Shown here piece by piece: positions 15,045 through 35,296 of a stretch of 43,591 nucleotides of DNA. Position numbers and translations under genes: made by a program. The stretch is from the IMG/VR virus record IMGVR_UViG_3300042891_000306, positions 1-43,591 of that record, one strand, 5' to 3'. Positions within the stretch are counted from its first letter, which is position 1. Every line of letters starts with the position of its first letter. Below the pieces are notes generated by a model. The model saw only the letters and a list, made by a program, of their open reading frames with translations. It was not told the DNA's origin and did not search any database. Origin of the DNA: a virus.

Positions 15045-15119
15045 TGGAGCCCTGTGAGGGAATCGAACCCCCATCCTGAGTTTCGAAGACTCTAATTCTA
15101 TCCGTTGAACTAACAGGGC
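15045..15119 (-). tRNA. tRNA-Arg (UCG)
   Basis: Cloverleaf with acceptor GCCCTGT/ACAGGGC, anticodon loop CTTCGAA, T-loop TTCGATT and encoded CCA. Reads CGA. Last gene of the tRNA cluster. Confidence 0.9.
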
Positions 15120-15120
15120 A

Positions 15121-15197
15121 TGGTAGAGATGGTAGGATTTGAACCTACGGTAGCTTGCGTATGAAGCAAGTGCATTAGGCCACTATGCTACATCTCT
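15121..15197 (-). tRNA. tRNA-Met (CAU), elongator type
   Basis: Acceptor AGAGATG/CATCTCT fully paired, anticodon stem CTTGC/GCAAG with loop TTCATAC, encoded CCA. The paired first base rules out an initiator. It lacks the close match to tRNA-Ile2 seen at 20847, so Met is preferred. Confidence 0.85.
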
Positions 15198-15202
15198 ATA
15201 AT

Positions 15203-15279
15203 TGGAGCAACGGGTCGGATTTGAACCGACGTACAAAGGATTTGCAGTCCTTGCCATTAGGCCACTCTGGTACCGTTGC
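15203..15279 (-). tRNA. tRNA-Cys (GCA)
   Basis: Acceptor GCAACGG/CCGTTGC, anticodon stem AAGGA/TCCTT with loop CTGCAAA, encoded CCA. Confidence 0.9.
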
Positions 15280-15288
15280 ATTGTTGTT

Positions 15289-15362
15289 TGGCTCCGGTGG
15301 AGGGAATCGAACCCCCACTAACGGTTTTGGAGACCGCCGCACTGCCATTATACTACACCGGA
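15289..15362 (-). tRNA. tRNA-Trp (CCA), copy 1
   Basis: Acceptor TCCGGTG/CACCGGA, loop CTCCAAA, discriminator G, encoded CCA. All 74 bases are identical to the copy at 19212-19285. Confidence 0.9.
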
Positions 15363-15364
15363 AT

Positions 15365-15439
15365 TGGCAGGGGTATCAAGACTCGAACTTGAAACGACAC
15401 AGTCAAAGTGTGTTGTGTTGCCAATTACACCATACCCCA
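15365..15439 (-). tRNA. tRNA-Gln (UUG)
   Basis: Starts TGGGGTA with a weak 1-72 pair, as usual for tRNA-Gln. Anticodon stem ACACA/TGTGT, loop CTTTGAC, encoded CCA. Its 5' flank AGTAAGATCAAT resembles that of tRNA-Asn. Confidence 0.88.
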
Positions 15440-15571
15440 ATTGATCTTACTATAGAATAAGTTAGGAGTTATCCTCCCGGAAGACCGAAGCCTTGAGCGT
15501 CCTCAAGTTTTAGCTGTAAATCCAGCTTACCATGTTGCGCATTATTAAGAGGCGTGGCCGGTTCTGTTGTT
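15440..15571 (-). other. Structured spacer between tRNA-Ser(GCU) and tRNA-Gln
   Basis: A 132-base gap without a convincing gene. The minus strand has a perfect hairpin CTTGAG-GACG-CTCAAG and a GGAG/CTCC hairpin. One frame reads LKLEDAQGFGLPGG then a stop, but has no in-frame ATG. It could be an RNA-processing spacer or a decayed gene. Confidence 0.35.
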
Positions 15572-15663
15572 TGGCCGAGGGTATCCGATTCGAACGGATG
15601 GTACACATTTCTGGTACGACAGTTTAGCAAACTGCTGGTTTCGGCCAACTCACCCAACCCTCG
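15572..15663 (-). tRNA. tRNA-Ser (GCU)
   Basis: Class II tRNA with long variable arm, acceptor CGAGGGT/ACCCTCG, anticodon stem GCAGT/ACTGT with loop TTGCTAA, discriminator G and encoded CCA. Driven by the promoter inside the upstream endonuclease gene. Confidence 0.9.
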
Positions 15664-15665
15664 AT

Positions 15666-16289
15666 TTAAAACTTTCTACCCTTATTATAACCTCTAATTA
15701 GGTAGTTGTCAAGCTCTTCTTTGCGTATTTTAAGATTTTCTACGCCATTTGTAATCCACATTGTGCCAAACTGCGAGTTCCTTTCTCCTACACCAGTACC
15801 TTTCTTAATAGTACTCAATAAATTTTTAGTATCTATAGAATGTGTTTTACCAACGAATGTTCCGGGTCGTCCTGTTAATATAGTTGACATATATTGCTTA
15901 GTAGCTTCGGAATGTTTTTTTCCTTTAAATCCACCACCTAGGGCAGCAGCTGCCTTTCCGGCCTTACTACATTGGTTAGCTTTATTGTTAATACCTGTGT
16001 TATTAATATAATCAAACCCACCAAAGCCGCCACGCTTAAGATTATACGTATTACCTTCTGTTAAGAAATCATCATTTACTAGTTCAGCTTCTTTAGCATA
16101 CATATCTTTAGCATTATCAAACACAAACATTATTTCTTTGGTAAAATTATCTAATCCGTATTTTAAATATGCACGATTTAAGTATTTTCCAGAACCCATA
16201 TAATCGTCATTAACATTTTTAGTTTTATGACTGCCTATATAAATTTTACCATCTATATTATTTGTAATTTTGTAAATTAAATAAAACAT
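15666..16289 (-). CDS. GIY-YIG homing endonuclease with NUMOD3-type repeats
   Basis: 207 residues. The GIY-YIG core reads YLIYKITN (3-10) and KIYIGSHKT (15-23), with the usual YGLDNF and a catalytic-region Glu in MYAKEAELVN. The linker carries two NUMOD3-like DNA-binding repeats (KGKKHSEATKQYMS and GKTHSIDTKNLLS) and an NSQFGTMWITNG block common in such enzymes. It stands free inside the tRNA cluster, not in a visible intron, and would promote its own spread by cutting phages lacking it. Its RBS region is folded in a hairpin overlapping a late promoter. Confidence 0.9.
   Translation of the reverse strand: MFYLIYKITNNIDGKIYIGSHKTKNVNDDYMGSGKYLNRAYLKYGLDNFTKEIMFVFDNAKDMYAKEAELVNDDFLTEGNTYNLKRGGFGGFDYINNTGINNKANQCSKAGKAAAALGGGFKGKKHSEATKQYMSTILTGRPGTFVGKTHSIDTKNLLSTIKKGTGVGERNSQFGTMWITNGVENLKIRKEELDNYLIRGYNKGRKF
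15684..15712 (-). promoter_or_regulatory. Consensus sigma70 promoter inside the endonuclease 3' end
   Basis: Minus strand TTGACA (15707-15712), 17 bases, TATAAT (15684-15689), entirely within the last codons of the GIY-YIG gene, 21 bases before tRNA-Ser(GCU). It would drive the downstream tRNAs. Confidence 0.75.
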
Positions 16290-16327
16290 AAGTGCCTCTA
16301 TATCTGTTGTTCTTATGTTTATTTATC
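16279..16327 (-). promoter_or_regulatory. Late promoter overlapping a start-codon-masking hairpin
   Basis: Minus strand GATAAATA (16320-16327) resembles the T4 late element. The following AAATAAACATAAG (16312-16324) pairs with CTTATGTTTTATTT (16279-16292; one-base bulge), which contains the endonuclease ATG; the ribosome site AGAGG lies in the loop. RNA starting at the late promoter would lack most of the 5' arm. Confidence 0.65.
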
Positions 16328-16329
16328 AT

Positions 16330-16352
16330 AGTTCGAGACTTACACTCGAACT
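16330..16352 (-). other. Stem-loop after tRNA-Ser(UGA)
   Basis: GTTCGAG and CTCGAAC arms around a seven-base loop, a few bases past the 3' end of tRNA-Ser(UGA). No T-tract follows, so tRNA 3' processing or pausing is more likely than termination. Confidence 0.45.
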
Positions 16353-16358
16353 CAAGGG

Positions 16359-16443
16359 CGGAAGCTAATCGCATCGAACGATTTACCATTCCTGGTAACT
16401 ACAGTTTTCAAGACTGTGTGAGGAGCCGACCTCAGTAACTTCC
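16359..16443 (-). tRNA. tRNA-Ser (UGA)
   Basis: Class II tRNA: acceptor GGAAGTT/AGCTTCC, anticodon stem ACAGT/ACTGT with loop CTTGAAA, variable-arm stem TTACC/GGTAA, T-arm AATCG/CGATT, discriminator G. The next bases are CCC, so it alone in the cluster does not encode CCA. Confidence 0.85.
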
Positions 16444-16448
16444 GAGTT

Positions 16449-16498
16449 GACAAGTCACCGCATTAGTCTTCAGCTTGCGCTGTTATCTTATCCTTGTC
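16449..16498 (-). other. Stem-loop 5' of tRNA-Ser(UGA)
   Basis: Outer arms GACAAG/CTTGTC close a region that holds CAGC-GCAA-GCTG, a GNRA tetraloop hairpin. The element ends five bases before the tRNA. It contains the motif GATAACAG shared with the spacers at 18145 and 19020. Confidence 0.45.
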
Positions 16499-16579
16499 TG
16501 ACAGCTTTTTAATACTAGGGTTTTGTTAAAATACTACGGGTCGCTGTTTGCCCCTAAACCCATACCGGTTAAAGATACT

Positions 16580-16655
16580 TGGTAGCCCATCCTGGTTTCG
16601 ATCCAGGTACCTACACCTTATCAAGATGCCGCTCTCCCAATTGAGCTAATGGGCT
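16580..16655 (-). tRNA. tRNA-Ile (GAU)
   Basis: Acceptor AGCCCAT/ATGGGCT, anticodon stem GCATC/GGTGT with loop TTGATAA, encoded CCA. Confidence 0.9.
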
Positions 16656-16662
16656 ATAAAAA

Positions 16663-16738
16663 TGGCTCCGGTCGTTGGAATCGAACCAACCTTCATGGAT
16701 TAACAGTCCACCGCCTACACCGTGTTTGCTTGACCGGA
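16663..16738 (-). tRNA. tRNA-Asn (GUU)
   Basis: Acceptor TCCGGTC/GACCGGA, anticodon stem GTGGA/TCCAT with loop CTGTTAA, T-loop TTCGATT, discriminator G, encoded CCA. The D-arm is unusual, with only two clear pairs. Confidence 0.85.
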
Positions 16739-16786
16739 ATTGATCTTTACTACTAAATTGTACAATAGCAGATTGAAGTAACTGCT

Positions 16787-17569
16787 CTATTTTGGGCCGC
16801 CGTGACCTCGCTCAGTGACACTAGGTGGACGAAGTGGCCATATCCCATGTTCTTCAAGGGTATATTGGCTACCCGGATTATTCATTAACTGATTATCTAA
16901 AAGTCGACGAGTATAAACATAGCTTAGTAATAACCAATGGTTATTGGTATTAATACTCCAATGTGCCTGATTATATTCCATTTGTATTCGGCCAAACCAA
17001 TATCTATTACCTAGTACATCATTGGTCAGACTATTACTGCGATAATAAAAATCTGTTAAGTGAGGTAATCTTATATTACCATAAAATATGTGAGATATTT
17101 TATATTCAAAATCTTCACAATGTTGCATGCACTCTTCTTGCTGCTGTTTTTGTTCAAATATAATATCTAGATCCGGACGTATTTCAATTACTTGATCATA
17201 AACAAATTTATTATCTAGTTCATACCTACGTTTAGATATATTAGCTACTTTGGCTAGATATGCTTGATAATAAAATGTTACCATTCGATTACTAAATTTA
17301 TCTAAATCCATAATTTTACAATCAATAAGATTACGCCCGTAAAATTTATCAACAATTTCCTGTTCAGTAACAGGCCGTTTACTATCTATGTGTATAGTTT
17401 TTCCTTCTATCGGAATCCAAATATCCTGAGTACTGTTCCATGTTGCAAAATAATAGTCTACCGTTTCACCCCACATCTCAGCATATTTAAATATATTTTC
17501 ATAAGTATGTGACCACGTTCTTAAATCGCCACATATTAATATAGCCAGACGTTTTTCTTTATATGACAT
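16787..17569 (-). CDS. Putative glycosyltransferase-like protein within the tRNA cluster
   Basis: A 260-residue protein. LAILICGDLRTW (8-19) and VYDQVIEIRPDLDI (about 123-136) are typical of polysaccharide-related glycosyltransferase-like proteins of phages and large DNA viruses, in which RPD followed by D may contribute to metal or sugar binding. It follows the 142-residue gene with an 11-base overlap and precedes tRNA-Asn, an isolated sugar-type pair between tRNAs. Function inferred from pattern only. Confidence 0.5.
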   Translation of the reverse strand: MSYKEKRLAILICGDLRTWSHTYENIFKYAEMWGETVDYYFATWNSTQDIWIPIEGKTIHIDSKRPVTEQEIVDKFYGRNLIDCKIMDLDKFSNRMVTFYYQAYLAKVANISKRRYELDNKFVYDQVIEIRPDLDIIFEQKQQQEECMQHCEDFEYKISHIFYGNIRLPHLTDFYYRSNSLTNDVLGNRYWFGRIQMEYNQAHWSINTNNHWLLLSYVYTRRLLDNQLMNNPGSQYTLEEHGIWPLRPPSVTERGHGGPK

Positions 17570-17987
17570 GAAAATTTATACCCAATCTATTGGCTAGAAA
17601 AAATAATTTATTCTTAGGAGTTAAATCAGCCTTACTGTAAATATCTTCCATAGTTACTTTGTATTGACTACCCAACATAGAAAATATTTCGGGACTACAC
17701 GCAAACGATGACGATTGGTCGTCTTTAAATACTATTAATTTTTGATCTACTAATAATAAACGATCATCTGTTAATTGTTCAATTTGAAATGACCGCATAG
17801 ATGAAATTTCCACAACCAAATCAATCTGTTGATCATTAAGAAATATTGCTTCGTCTATTTGTATAGCGATATCTGCCCGTTTTAATTCAGCGTTAGATTG
17901 ACTACTAGTAAACACAATATCTGTGTTTAGTCTACGTTTAAGTTCTGGAACAAATTCATCATTGATTGATGCTATGGCAATTTTCAT
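17559..17987 (-). CDS. Hypothetical protein paired with the glycosyltransferase-like gene
   Basis: 142 residues starting MKIAIASINDEFVPELKRRL. Alternating beta and alpha pattern suggests a Rossmann-like or receiver-like fold, without catalytic motifs. AATAAATA (17993-18000) lies five bases before the ATG and no ribosome site is visible. Overlap with the downstream gene indicates co-translation. Confidence 0.6.
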   Translation of the reverse strand: MKIAIASINDEFVPELKRRLNTDIVFTSSQSNAELKRADIAIQIDEAIFLNDQQIDLVVEISSMRSFQIEQLTDDRLLLVDQKLIVFKDDQSSSFACSPEIFSMLGSQYKVTMEDIYSKADLTPKNKLFFLANRLGINFHVI

Positions 17988-18009
17988 GTTAATATTTATT
18001 ATATGTATA

Positions 18010-18085
18010 TGGTGGAGGTGACAAGGATCGAACTTGCGACATCATGCTTGCAAAGCATGCGCTCTCCCAACTGAGCTACACCCCC
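18010..18085 (-). tRNA. tRNA-Ala (UGC)
   Basis: Acceptor GGGGGTG/CACCTCC, anticodon stem CATGC/GCATG with loop TTTGCAA, encoded CCA. Confidence 0.92.
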
Positions 18086-18301
18086 GTGTAAGTGTTCTGC
18101 TACTAGCACCACCTAGCCCAGAACTGAGTAGTTACCCTGTCCAGCTGTTATCTTTTGGATATAACAACAAATAACCCACGATACTTTCAAGGCTCCCGGC
18201 AATGGGACTTGTGGCATGGTCTAGACCATCGTGTGTGCCCTGGCGTTATGGTATTGCCAATTACCCACTTTCGATAAAGCGCAAAGTGTAAAGCTAGTGT
18301 T
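18086..18301 (-). other. 216-base structured spacer between tRNA-Gly and tRNA-Ala
   Basis: No convincing gene. It holds GTTCTG/CAGAAC (18094-18124) with an inner CTAG/CTAG stem ending eight bases before tRNA-Ala, the GATAACAG motif, a perfect palindrome ATGGTCTAGACCAT (18216-18229), and CACTTT/AAAGTG arms (18270-18292). It may be a small structured RNA or tRNA-processing spacer. Confidence 0.4.
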
Positions 18302-18375
18302 TGGAGCGGGATATCAGAATCGAACTGATGACAGAAGTTTGGAAAACTCCAGTTTTGCCATTAAACTAATCCCGC
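18302..18375 (-). tRNA. tRNA-Gly (UCC)
   Basis: Acceptor GCGGGAT/ATCCCGC, anticodon stem GGAGT/ACTTC with loop TTTCCAA, encoded CCA. Confidence 0.92.
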
Positions 18376-18379
18376 ATGT

Positions 18380-18464
18380 TGGTGCGAATGGTCGGACTTG
18401 AACCGACATGCCCTGCGGCGAGGGATTTTAAGTCCCTTGTGTATACCAATTTCACCACACTCGC
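18380..18464 (-). tRNA. tRNA-Leu (UAA)
   Basis: Class II tRNA, acceptor GCGAGTG/CATTCGC, anticodon stem AGGGA/TCCCT with loop CTTAAAA, long variable arm, discriminator A and encoded CCA. Confidence 0.92.
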
Positions 18465-18471
18465 ATATTAC

Positions 18472-18556
18472 TGGTGCCTTAGGAGAGACTCGAACTCTCA
18501 CGCTGTTAAGCACCGGCTTCTAAGACCGGGGTGTCTACCAATTCCACCACCAAGGC
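18472..18556 (-). tRNA. tRNA-Leu (UAG)
   Basis: Class II tRNA, acceptor GCCTTGG/CTAAGGC, anticodon stem CCGGT/GCCGG with loop CTTAGAA, encoded CCA. Confidence 0.92.
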
Positions 18557-18563
18557 ATACTAC

Positions 18564-18638
18564 TGGTACAGCTACGGGGAATCGAACCCCGCTTGCCGGG
18601 ATGAAAACCCGATGTCCTAACCGATAGACGATAGCTGC
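18564..18638 (-). tRNA. tRNA-Glu (UUC)
   Basis: Acceptor GCAGCTA/TAGCTGT with G-U at the end, anticodon loop TTTTCAT on stem TCGGG/CCCGG, encoded CCA. Confidence 0.9.
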
Positions 18639-18643
18639 ATTAT

Positions 18644-18728
18644 TGGTGCCGGCTGAGTGAATCGAACACTCTCTATCTTACGAAGCCTGATTACAAGTCA
18701 GGTGCAATCCCACTCTGCGCAAGCCGGC
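18644..18728 (-). tRNA. tRNA with UGU anticodon (Thr by decoding) and long variable arm
   Basis: Acceptor GCCGGCT/AGCCGGC, anticodon stem CCTGA/TCAGG with loop CTTGTAA, giving UGU and predicted decoding of ACA. Between the anticodon and T-stems (GAGTG/CACTC) lie about 14 bases, CTTCGTAAGATAGA, with a CTT/AAG mini-stem, and the D-stem has three pairs. Such a class II shape is normal for Leu, Ser and Tyr, not Thr. Encoded CCA. Confidence 0.8.
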
Positions 18729-18739
18729 GGTTAAAACTT

Positions 18740-18901
18740 TTACTTACGTGCTTCTAATATTCTAATACGACTACGGATCTTTGCTTGATCCTTTTTCTTA
18801 CTAGTCTTTTCTAACATGGTATTTAATTGTGTTAGGTTCAATGGACCTAAACGTGGTTTACCTGTGCGTGTCTGCATTGGATTTGCTTTTTTCACTGCCA
18901 T
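18740..18901 (-). CDS. Small very basic protein inside the tRNA cluster, 53 residues
   Basis: Starts MAVKKANPMQTRTGKPRLGP and ends in a Lys/Arg-rich helix (KKKDQAKIRSRIRILEARK). AGGAGAAG precedes the ATG with good spacing, which strongly supports translation. It sits between tRNA-fMet and the UGU tRNA in the same direction. The charge suggests RNA, DNA or acidic-protein binding. No named family is recognised. Confidence 0.8.
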   Translation of the reverse strand: MAVKKANPMQTRTGKPRLGPLNLTQLNTMLEKTSKKKDQAKIRSRIRILEARK

Positions 18902-18917
18902 GTTACTTCTCCTGTAT

Positions 18918-18992
18918 TGGTTGCGGAGGACGGATTCGAACCGCCGATCTACAGGTTATGAGCCTGCCGGGTTGCCACTTCCCCACCCCGCG
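18918..18992 (-). tRNA. Initiator tRNA-fMet (CAU)
   Basis: Begins CGCGGGG and ends CTCCGCA before ACCA, giving the C1xA72 mismatch that marks bacterial initiator tRNAs. Anticodon loop CTCATAA. The anticodon stem GCAGG/CCTGT keeps only two of the three usual G-C pairs. Confidence 0.88.
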
Positions 18993-18999
18993 ATAAAAG

Positions 19000-19037
19000 T
19001 TCTGCGGCCAAATACAGGCCTGTTATCATGTGCAGAA
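19000..19037 (-). other. Stem-loop 5' of tRNA-fMet
   Basis: TTCTGC/GCAGAA outer arms with an inner GGCC/GGCC stem, ending seven bases before the tRNA. Similar in placement to the elements before tRNA-Ser(UGA), tRNA-Ala, tRNA-Asp and tRNA-Pro. Confidence 0.45.
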
Positions 19038-19075
19038 TCATGACTGATTTCAACGGTGGAGTTGCACCACAGGCA

Positions 19076-19144
19076 TCAGCTACCCTTGGACGGTTTGCCG
19101 TACTCTCCTAACCTCGAATACATATTGTTACGGCTTTCTTCCAT
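19076..19144 (-). CDS. Possible 22-residue peptide gene
   Basis: ATG at 19144, just downstream of the promoter at 19169-19197, encodes MEESRNNMYSRLGEYGKPSK plus two residues. The ribosome site is weak (TAAG). It is the only frame in the 218-base gap between tRNA-Trp copy 2 and tRNA-fMet that looks peptide-like. It shares YSRL with the 20-residue peptide at 19674. Low confidence. Confidence 0.3.
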   Translation of the reverse strand: MEESRNNMYSRLGEYGKPSKGS

Positions 19145-19168
19145 TTACTTATTTGTTACTATCTATAT

Positions 19169-19197
19169 AGTGTAGCATTTTTGATATTTGCTGTCAA
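19169..19197 (-). promoter_or_regulatory. Sigma70-type promoter within the tRNA cluster
   Basis: Minus strand TTGACA (19192-19197), 17 bases, TACACT (19169-19174). It would restart transcription toward tRNA-fMet and the following tRNAs. Confidence 0.7.
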
Positions 19198-19211
19198 CCA
19201 CTATTTGAAAC

Positions 19212-19285
19212 TGGCTCCGGTGGAGGGAATCGAACCCCCACTAACGGTTTTGGAGACCGCCGCACTGCCATTATACTACACCGGA
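19212..19285 (-). tRNA. tRNA-Trp (CCA), copy 2
   Basis: Identical over 74 bases to the copy at 15289-15362. Encoded CCA. Flanks differ, so the repeat unit is the tRNA itself. Confidence 0.9.
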
Positions 19286-19291
19286 ATAACT

Positions 19292-19366
19292 TGGCGACTC
19301 GACGGAGAATCGAACTCCGATGATGGGATAGACAATCCCACGTAATAACCATTATACGATCGAGCC
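19292..19366 (-). tRNA. tRNA-Asp (GUC)
   Basis: Acceptor GGCTCGA/TCGAGTC, anticodon stem TGGGA/TCCCA with loop TTGTCTA, discriminator G, encoded CCA. Confidence 0.9.
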
Positions 19367-19372
19367 AAAGAA

Positions 19373-19411
19373 CTTCCGAGCCGACTGCAAGCAGTATTCT
19401 ACGGACGGAAG
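19373..19411 (-). other. Stem-loop 5' of tRNA-Asp
   Basis: CTTCCG/CGGAAG outer arms and an inner palindromic ACTGC-AA-GCAGT hairpin, ending six bases before the tRNA 5' end. Confidence 0.45.
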
Positions 19412-19424
19412 CCATATTAAAAGT

Positions 19425-19499
19425 TGGGTTGACTAACCGGGTTCGAACCGGTGATGAAGGAATCACAATCCTTAGTGTTGCCGCTACACTATAGTCAAC
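19425..19499 (-). tRNA. tRNA-His (GUG)
   Basis: Has the extra G-1 opposite discriminator C73 that identifies tRNA-His. Acceptor TTGACTA/TAGTCAA, anticodon loop TTGTGAT, encoded CCA. Confidence 0.92.
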
Positions 19500-19501
19500 A
19501 T

Positions 19502-19577
19502 TGGTAGGACGGGTGGGCTACGATCCCACCACCTCGACGTTAAAAGCATCTTGCTCTTCCAAATGAGCTACCGTCCC
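19502..19577 (-). tRNA. tRNA-Lys (UUU)
   Basis: Acceptor GGGACGG/CCGTCCT, anticodon loop CTTTTAA, encoded CCA. Confidence 0.9.
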
Positions 19578-19582
19578 AAACT

Positions 19583-19666
19583 TGGTGGGTGATCTAGGAG
19601 TCGAACCTAGTTTCCGGAGGACACAGATTTACAGTCTGCTGCAGTCGCCAATGCTGCTCATCACCC
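19583..19666 (-). tRNA. tRNA-Tyr (GUA)
   Basis: Class II tRNA, acceptor GGGTGAT/ATCACCC, anticodon stem CAGA/TCTG with loop CTGTAAA, long variable arm and encoded CCA. It shows that the class II UGU tRNA at 18644 is not the only Tyr candidate. Confidence 0.92.
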
Positions 19667-19673
19667 ATATTCT

Positions 19674-19736
19674 TTATTTTAATCTACTGTAAACAGGAAA
19701 GCCAAAGCCCCCTTGTTCAACATCATGTTCGTTCAT
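19674..19736 (-). CDS. Likely 20-residue peptide gene between tRNAs
   Basis: The frame MNEHDVEQGGFGFPVYSRLK is preceded by AAAGGAGG seven bases before the ATG, one of the best ribosome sites in the window. It lies between tRNA-Pro and tRNA-Tyr in the same direction. Function unknown; it could be a true micropeptide or a translated leader affecting tRNA processing. Confidence 0.5.
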   Translation of the reverse strand: MNEHDVEQGGFGFPVYSRLK

Positions 19737-19798
19737 GATTAATCCTCCTTTAGCATTTTATCCGCCTGCAATTAAGTATAAATCAGCGGTTATAACAT

Positions 19799-19876
19799 TG
19801 GTCTCTCGTGTAGGATTCGAACCTACGTTCTTCTTGCTCCCAAAGCAAGTGCCATACCAGACTAGGCGAACGAGAG
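19799..19876 (-). tRNA. tRNA-Pro (UGG)
   Basis: Acceptor CTCTCGT/ACGAGAG, anticodon stem CTTGC/GCAAG with loop TTTGGGA, encoded CCA. Confidence 0.9.
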
Positions 19877-19880
19877 TTAA

Positions 19881-19982
19881 ACGCACTCTTACGAATGCGT
19901 ATAATAAAGCACACTAATTGCTCTCTTAAGACATAATCCACATTGCGTGGGACCTAGTTGCCGATTAATGCGCTTTATTATA
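19881..19982 (-). ncRNA. Possible structured RNA upstream of tRNA-Pro
   Basis: A perfect 11-base inverted repeat TATAATAAAGC (19900-19910) / GCTTTATTATA (19972-19982) encloses an imperfect stem and a CCAC/GTGG hairpin; a second hairpin ACGCA/TGCGT (19881-19900) ends four bases before tRNA-Pro. A 60-codon frame across it has no ribosome site and is judged spurious. A small RNA or processing element is an inference. Confidence 0.4.
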
Positions 19983-20086
19983 ACAAGTATTTTCTGTTCA
20001 CAAAAGAACATGCCATCCACTTGTCCGCCCATTTGCCCATTTAACGTGTGGACTGCGATCTCGTTTCGCATAACACGTACTGCTTA

Positions 20087-20215
20087 CTACTTAGAAAGTT
20101 TTTTTAAAAGATTAGCATTTTCTGTTAATAGTTTTGTTACTCTTTCTAATTTTTGTTCTAATACCACTATCCTTTGTTCTGGAGTCGGCTTTTGAACAAT
20201 TTGTTTTTTATCCAT
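20087..20215 (-). CDS. Small coiled-coil protein, 42 residues
   Basis: Starts MDKKQIVQKPTPEQRIVVLE and continues as a heptad-like helix (LERVTKLLTENANLLKKL), so probably an oligomeric coiled coil. AAGGAG precedes the ATG by eight bases. It follows the terminator-like hairpin at 20234-20251 and precedes the structured region before tRNA-Pro. Function unknown. Confidence 0.75.
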   Translation of the reverse strand: MDKKQIVQKPTPEQRIVVLEQKLERVTKLLTENANLLKKLSK

Positions 20216-20229
20216 CTTCGGCTCCTTAA

Positions 20230-20251
20230 AAGCAAAAACCCCAGGGTTTTT
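20230..20251 (-). terminator. Terminator-like hairpin after the 43-residue gene
   Basis: Minus strand AAAAACC-CTGG-GGTTTTT followed by GCTTTT. An overlapping AACCC/GGGTT pairing just upstream could compete, so read-through to the 42-residue gene may be partial. Confidence 0.6.
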
Positions 20252-20297
20252 AATCCTAGGGTTCTTAATTAAAATTCACTTATATTATATATAAACG

Positions 20298-20429
20298 TTA
20301 ACTAAGATCCCCATAGATACTATTCGGTGTGCGATCATTGCCTAATGTCTCAATCGCTGACCAATAAGACATCGTGGCAAGTGCTGACACTTGTTTCGAT
20401 ATTGTAAATTGATGTCTTTGGTTAAACAT
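20298..20429 (-). CDS. Small hypothetical early protein, 43 residues
   Basis: Begins MFNQRHQFTISKQVSALATM and ends SAIETLGNDRTPNSIYGDLS. An AAAGGA lies 13 bases before the ATG, longer than ideal. A near-consensus promoter (20473-20501) is 40 bases upstream and a terminator follows, making a compact one-gene early unit. No family recognised. Confidence 0.65.
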   Translation of the reverse strand: MFNQRHQFTISKQVSALATMSYWSAIETLGNDRTPNSIYGDLS

Positions 20430-20472
20430 TTTGCTTTCGCATTCCTTTAATTAATTTGTTACTATAACAACT

Positions 20473-20501
20473 AGTATACAGTCTATTTGTTAGCCTGTCA
20501 A
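20473..20501 (-). promoter_or_regulatory. Sigma70-type promoter for the 43-residue gene
   Basis: Minus strand TTGACA (20496-20501), 17 bases, TATACT (20473-20478). A GATAAATA (20516-20523) lies just upstream. Confidence 0.75.
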
Positions 20502-20544
20502 CCTCTTTGTTAATTTATTTATCTTTTATTTTTACGATACTAGT

Positions 20545-20742
20545 TTAATCGTCAATTACGTCAATACCAGCAGCACCAAGTTCAGTTACTGCTTCAACTG
20601 CGGCTTTTTTCTTTGGTGCACCCCAGAAGTTAGTTGTTGCTGTTTCACTTTGTACACCACGAGCTATTTGTTGTATCTGACCACCGTTGGCTAAAAATTC
20701 TGCCATTACTTGTTCATAATCGTATTCATTTATATCTGACAT
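20545..20742 (-). CDS. Small hypothetical protein between tRNAs, 65 residues
   Basis: Starts MSDINEYDYEQVMAEFLANG, acidic N-terminus then a Lys patch (GAPKKKAAVEAV). AAGGATA precedes the ATG. It lies directly downstream of tRNA-Arg(UCU) in the rpoZ-like transcript. Function unknown. Confidence 0.7.
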   Translation of the reverse strand: MSDINEYDYEQVMAEFLANGGQIQQIARGVQSETATTNFWGAPKKKAAVEAVTELGAAGIDVIDD

Positions 20743-20765
20743 CTTATATCCTTATATTATATTAC

Positions 20766-20840
20766 TGGTCCGGCGTGAGGGAATCGAACCCCCAACTAGG
20801 GAGTAGAAATCCCCTGTTATATCCATTTAACTAACACCGG
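20766..20840 (-). tRNA. tRNA-Arg (UCU)
   Basis: Acceptor CCGGTGT/ACGCCGG, anticodon stem GGGGA/TCCCT with loop TTTCTAC, encoded CCA. Reads AGA. Confidence 0.9.
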
Positions 20841-20846
20841 AGTGTT

Positions 20847-20923
20847 TGGTGGGCCTTACTGGACTTGAACCAGTGACATTCCGATTATGAGTCGGACGCT
20901 CTAACCAACTGAGCTAAAGGCCC
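20847..20923 (-). tRNA. tRNA-Ile2 (CAU, lysidine type) likely
   Basis: Acceptor GGGCCTT/AAGGCCC, anticodon loop CTCATAA, encoded CCA. The body (TTAGCTCAGTTGGTTAGAGC and GGTTCAAGTCCAG) closely resembles the minor tRNA-Ile that reads AUA after lysidine modification, rather than elongator Met. Confidence 0.8.
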
Positions 20924-34789: not shown

Positions 34790-35296
34790 TTAATCTGGCT
34801 TGCTTTTGCCTAATATCTGTGCTAACAGTGCGTTTCTATCAAGTACTACACCACCGCTACCATCTACAGCATCAAGCAATTTATCGCCGTCTGTCTTGCT
34901 GGCATCTTTGGCCGCTTGCTGATCTAAACGCATTTTTTTAAGTTGTAGGTCAATTGTACGTATCTTTCTATCAATTTTAGCCTGTTTAGCTGTAATGGCA
35001 TGACCTAGTAATGTACCTGCTGTAGCCAATATGTGTCCGCTAAAACGTGCTTCTACATTCATACCCAAATCCATTAGGTCTTGAAACTTATCTTTGGCTA
35101 GATCACTTAATTCATCTAGTTCTTTATCAGTTACATCTAAATCGTTAACGTGTGGTAGTGCTGCATCAATCTTATCAATAGTAAGATCCATTTCTTCAAT
35201 AAGAGCTCTATTTTCTTCGATTGTGGTGTTTGCGTCTTCTACTGTAGATTCTTCAGTAGGAGCAAGATTAAATAATTCTTGTAGTTTTTGTGTCAT
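34790..35296 (-). CDS. 16: Terminase small subunit gp16-like
   Basis: 168 residues, all helical: an acidic N-terminal part, then RFSGHILATAGTLLGHAITA and KIDRKIRTIDLQLKKMRLDQ, matching the central paired-helix region of T4 gp16 (164 residues), which forms rings that regulate packaging. The length and the position next to gp4 and before gp17 agree. TATAAATA (35304-35311) lies seven bases before the ATG, with no ribosome site. Similarity is weak by sequence. Confidence 0.6.
   Translation of the reverse strand: MTQKLQELFNLAPTEESTVEDANTTIEENRALIEEMDLTIDKIDAALPHVNDLDVTDKELDELSDLAKDKFQDLMDLGMNVEARFSGHILATAGTLLGHAITAKQAKIDRKIRTIDLQLKKMRLDQQAAKDASKTDGDKLLDAVDGSGGVVLDRNALLAQILGKSKPD

Follow-up and report, generated by a model that had tools for sequence, protein, structure and literature searches.

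The SegB-like homing endonuclease gene in the tRNA cluster of this phage DNA is very probably controlled by a late-expression switch that works as in T4 segB and I-TevI. In the proposed mechanism, early RNA would run through the tRNA genes into the endonuclease gene, and this read-through RNA would fold with its AUG paired, so that translation would be kept low. Late in infection, a gp55-type sigma factor would start RNA at about position 16314, within the 5′ arm of the hairpin, and the resulting late RNA would be unable to form the hairpin, leaving the AGAGG-AUG start region open. The likely benefit would be that the nuclease is made only at a time when phage genomes are plentiful for recombinational homing. 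A preliminary description had proposed this combination of late promoter and hairpin, and its logic is supported by the conservation of the arrangement, by compensated pairs and gp55-like sigma genes in relatives, and by non-endonuclease controls. Its statement that the read-through RNA would be silent was too strong.

The endonuclease gene, its hairpin and its promoters

The window, i.e. the whole stretch of 43,591 nucleotides analysed, contains a free-standing GIY-YIG homing endonuclease gene of the SegB type at 15666..16289 (minus strand, 207 aa, with NUMOD3), assigned from phrog_314, Pfam, and identity to T4 SegB. The product matched phrog_314 (homing endonuclease) with E = 1e-46 and was 40% identical to T4 SegB, with conserved residues in common. 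The Pfam model SegE_GIY-YIG matched with 26.3 bits (cut-off 25), NUMOD3 was also above its cut-off, and the generic GIY-YIG model scored 18.0 bits, under its cut-off of 22.6; the GIY-YIG catalytic domain that defines Seg-type (SegB-like) enzymes was thereby recognized. Site-specific cleavage and homing by the enzyme are putative. The gene is flanked by two complete tRNA genes on the minus strand identified with ARAGORN, tRNA-Ser(tga) upstream (16356..16444) and tRNA-Ser(gct) downstream (15572..15663). No Rfam match to an intron was obtained anywhere in the window, where tRNAs were the sole known Rfam elements, with none at the hairpin. In total, 24 tRNA genes are clustered at 15045-20923, including two tRNA-Trp (cca), several tRNA-Met (cat), and two tRNA-Arg. 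Two genes within the cluster (16787-17569 and 17559-17987) had no Pfam or PHROG match, and a AATAAATA box is located 5 nt ahead of the ATG of the latter.

All elements of the switch (box, hairpin, start codon, and ribosome site) lie on the minus strand. The 5′ arm of the hairpin, UAAAUAAACAUAAG, occupies 16325-16312 and forms standard pairs in seven relatives. The 3′ arm, CUUAUGUUUUAUUUA, at 16292-16278, holds the AUG (16289-16287) and codons 2-4, and the Shine-Dalgarno sequence AGAGG (16299-16295) lies in the loop, 5 nt before the AUG. The placement of the start codon and ribosome site was thus as described previously, but the repeat itself, given earlier as 13 bases, comprises 14 pairs with one bulged U and a 19-nt loop (MFE -7.8 kcal/mol). 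None of 200 dinucleotide shuffles folded as well (z = -3.2). In a more conservative test where the box was held fixed and the flanks were shuffled, the focal hairpin alone was moderately unusual (p = 0.02-0.04); the switch is convincing because of family-level evidence rather than because of this A-T rich and modest stem (-7.8 kcal/mol). At the focal locus, opening the start region was predicted to cost 8.2 kcal/mol in the long RNA vs. 3.4 kcal/mol in the late RNA at 37 °C, a temperature whose folding energies may not apply to the host. At 10-25 °C both RNAs were predicted to be tighter, with a long-late difference still near 5 kcal/mol. Given the predicted opening costs at 37 °C, strong repression is plausible but not absolute. 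In the long RNA the hairpin would hide the start codon or ribosome site, as judged from the predicted fold and its conservation, and it would probably do so until late in infection. A second stem-loop, AGTTCGAG/CTCGAACT, was computed at 16330..16352 on the minus strand, after the upstream tRNA, and carries a conserved T[CT]GAAC box. This box, often found in the second stem-loop, was not seen before the other late boxes of the window.

A T4-type late promoter box, GATAAATA, was identified at 16327-16320 from its sequence, placement, and conservation in relatives. Six of its eight bases fall inside the 5′ arm, which agrees with the overlap described previously. Late TATA boxes lie about one helical turn upstream of the transcription start, and in T4 it is chiefly the first base of the late box that varies (PMC2988020); in T4-like cyanophages the reported late motif is NATAAATA (PMC2984593). 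By analogy with T4, the late start is predicted about 6 nt past the box, at 16313..16314 on the minus strand, and the late RNA of the endonuclease would then begin near 16314 and lack most of the 5′ arm. The position of the box is thus such that a late start of this kind would remove the arm. Throughout the window ATAAATA occurs at 14 sites, 13 of them on the coding (minus) strand, and 11 of these 13 are followed by a gene start within 75 nt (binomial p = 2e-11), including those of the tail sheath and tube genes. Since the total count was lower than expected by chance, the distribution reflects placement of the sites and not scatter, and NATAAATA boxes at positions consistent with late genes mark putative T4-type late promoters in the window. 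Among isolates, the terminases nearest to that of the window belong to PA5oct-type Pseudomonas phages (54%). PA5oct encodes a gp55-like late sigma factor, as do metagenomic contigs whose terminases are 83%, 72%, and 70% identical to that of the window, itself a 43.6-kb fragment.

Early RNA likely reads across the endonuclease gene, because candidate sigma-70 promoters lie upstream and only weak terminator-like sites were found between these and the gene. One such promoter, a perfect consensus (12/12), is located upstream of the tRNA cluster at 21260-21232, and a second candidate source of read-through RNA (11/12) lies inside the cluster at 20501-20473. Both are on the minus strand, as are the tRNAs, the neighbouring genes, and the endonuclease. 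Within the endonuclease gene itself, at its 3′ end (15684..15712, minus strand), another perfect sigma-70 promoter (TTGACA-17-TATAAT, 12/12) points toward the downstream tRNAs. It is also present in L002, L006, L007, and L008. Promoters embedded in endonuclease genes of T4 have been described as favouring retention.

In two contigs of a related phage, L007 and L008, only the 3′ half of the endonuclease gene is left. This relic (L007 3001-3306, L008 555-860) corresponds to window positions 15666-15974 and is 100% identical in DNA over 309 nt, with flanks of about 90% identity downstream and 78% upstream. It lacks the start, hairpin, and late promoter and retains the perfect sigma-70 promoter toward the downstream tRNAs. 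Gene identity above that of its surroundings fits a recent transfer, which bears on the putative homing only indirectly. When the same endonuclease was sought in larger contigs with close terminases it was missing from most, as expected of a mobile gene.

Conservation of the proposed switch and rival explanations

A total of 80 loci encoding relatives of the enzyme were collected, of which 54 start regions, including T4 segB and the window, were distinct at 90% identity. The scanned SegB-like loci sit in tRNA clusters. ATAAATA was present at most 70 nt upstream on the coding strand in 42 of the 54 distinct loci and on the opposite strand in one; the remaining 12 have no exact box. Shuffled sequences gave a mean of 1.5 and a maximum of 7 among 54 loci, and random 70-mers from the same loci contained the motif in 2.6%. 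Pairing was analysed in the 34 loci with a normal leader by cutting the RNA at base 6 past the box and folding the removed segment against the retained start region, with a control in which the box was held fixed and the flanks were shuffled. The removed segment paired with the start region above 95% of shuffles (p = 0.05 or better) in 27 of the 34 loci, and the signal was missing in seven, with the counts representing related sequences rather than independent events. Opening the start region cost on average 12.0 kcal/mol in the long RNA, 3.3 kcal/mol in the late RNA, and 5.6 kcal/mol with shuffled flanks. For 15 ordinary late genes of T4 and the window, used as controls, the corresponding values were 4.1, 2.8, and 4.1 kcal/mol, with excess pairing at p = 0.05 in two of the 15. 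Among known cases, I-TevII showed the pairing effect and gene 49 nearly did (p = 0.07). Six late-box genes of the window were tested, and the effect was restricted to the focal endonuclease. In T4 segE (L084 37458-38075) the late-box region and the start region also paired in excess (p = 0.01); segE is not named among the hairpin-regulated endonucleases in the relevant section of PMC2988022.

Within the focal subfamily (n = 7), all 102 of 102 countable cells were standard pairs, vs. 33-51% when slid. Most pairs are invariant because the arms are bound by the promoter, the AUG, and the protein, and a single compensated pair (A-U to U-A) was present. Compensatory changes had been suggested as a check on the repeat; in these seven sequences covariation was not significant (74/500 shuffles), whereas in another subfamily, whose stem sequence is unrelated, 8 of 21 pairs had changed on both sides, a level reached by 0/500 shuffles. 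Other loci have further unrelated stems at the same position, some of them long and perfect, with folds to about -25 kcal/mol. The kept position and logic despite diverged sequence are the strongest argument for a selected RNA hairpin, and the comparative evidence supports a late-translation switch.

These data bear on three other explanations. In one, the hairpin has no regulatory role and arose by chance from two constrained A-T-rich elements, the MFYLIYKIT codons and the late box. The A-T rich stem, the arms partly constrained by promoter or protein, and the weak covariation in the focal subfamily speak for it; however, the pairing is lost in shuffles even with the box and start region fixed, it is absent from other late-box genes of the same window, and other subfamilies have long stems with compensated changes. 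We consider this explanation very unlikely, and at the family level chance pairing of the box with coding sequence was rejected by the box-fixed shuffles and the non-endonuclease controls. Somewhat less remote, though still very unlikely, is that the inverted repeat acts at the DNA level, as a late-promoter operator to which the endonuclease binds as in I-TevI autorepression, with RNA pairing as a by-product. Operators overlap the promoters of I-TevI and probably also of I-TevII and I-TevIII (PMC2988022), and in 22 of 42 loci a T[CT]GAAC box directly precedes the late box, vs. 0.6% in shuffles. Yet the hairpin sequence is wholly different between subfamilies with its position relative to the AUG kept, the arms are 19 nt apart, and the pairing takes in the start codon and is largely missing at ordinary late promoters. 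Alongside the RNA switch there may well be another control that acts on the DNA.

It appears extremely improbable that the stem-loop chiefly serves RNA processing or termination where the tRNA and endonuclease genes adjoin (cleavage by an RNase, tRNA 3′-end trimming, or attenuation). The second stem-loop after the upstream tRNA would fit such a role, and T4 segB RNA is reportedly processed by RNase E (PMC2988022), but the terminator scan detected no intrinsic terminator at the hairpin on the minus strand, and across loci the stem takes in the start region and would be deprived of its 5′ arm by transcription from the predicted late start. The T[CT]GAAC box might serve as an autorepressor operator or belong to a processing stem.

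Late boxes close to the start codon

The distance from NATAAATA to the ATG was bimodal in the window and in two relatives, at either 4-7 nt or at least 16 nt with nothing between. Short gaps accounted for 6/12, 8/44, and 9/22 sites, respectively, so that more than one quarter of gene-associated late boxes in the lineage of the window lie 4-7 nt before an ATG. Scrambled motifs yielded 0-2 short gaps, and in T4 there were none below 12 nt. On the basis of box-ATG spacing, the short-gap late genes of the window start at 35296, 29396, 22453, 17987, and 11242 (minus strand); others occur in L178-L192. The spacing suggests that these genes would give leaderless late mRNAs if transcription starts about 6 nt past the box as in T4. 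A literature search on T4-type late promoters found no report of leaderless late mRNAs.

Among the endonuclease loci, 8 of 54 belong to the short class, with a box-ATG gap of 1-5 nt. Six of the eight still show pairing of the removed segment with the beginning of the coding sequence (p<0.08); four loci were below 0.05 on both measures, and L034 was at 0.003. Judged from spacing alone, a T4-like start would place the 5′ end of the short-class endonuclease RNAs at the AUG, and the same switch logic may apply to them without a leader.

Relation to known hairpin-controlled genes

The I-TevI arrangement has also been described for I-TevII, I-TevIII, T4 segB, and Aeh1 mobE in a 2010 review (PMC2988022), with the hairpin shown for mobE and implicated for segB (PMC3014915). 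The preliminary description had implied a contrast with T4 in that the window enzyme is free-standing inside a tRNA cluster, which proved mistaken: T4 SegB is itself free-standing, and its gene, flanked on its own strand by tRNA-Arg and tRNA-Ile, carries this kind of hairpin and late promoter too. As in the window, the enzyme is a homologue (40%), the gene is co-oriented with the surrounding tRNA genes, the box CATAAATA lies inside the 5′ arm, and the AUG lies in the 3′ arm. T4 segB differs in its stronger stem (-19.4 kcal/mol), its sequence, its tRNA neighbours, and its phage lineage. I-TevI, I-TevII, and I-TevIII share a late promoter placed so that late RNA is without the hairpin that hides the start region in long RNAs, but are encoded in group I introns. 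I-TevI represses its own promoter, whereas autorepression is only a candidate for the window enzyme. Aeromonas phage Aeh1 mobE likewise encodes a free-standing endonuclease and has a hairpin shown to hide the ribosome site (as cited in reviews), but is of the HNH family and inserted in a ribonucleotide reductase gene. In T4 genes e, soc, and 49 a hairpin also hides the start region in early RNA, and the late RNA of gene e is without the 5′ part of the hairpin; these genes do not encode homing endonucleases.

The window switch is thus the same control as that of T4 segB, on a homologous gene in a similar place, and is not new in kind. What is new is its wide, sequence-diverged conservation beyond the T-even phages and its presence in a large phage of a lineage distant from T4. 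We tentatively propose, as an extension that is perhaps somewhat doubtful as a whole, that the switch is a portable, conserved module of SegB-like endonucleases in many large phages with T4-type late transcription. Its stems would have been rebuilt repeatedly, and in one leaderless class removal of the 5′ arm and the end at the start codon would be a single event, with T[CT]GAAC perhaps adding autorepression. A control known from a handful of T4 and Aeh1 genes is likely the normal timing of SegB-like endonucleases in a large, mostly uncultured set of phages. With the switch kept and its sequence not, these phages supply numerous natural variants on which the joint selection of promoter position and RNA folding can be tested.
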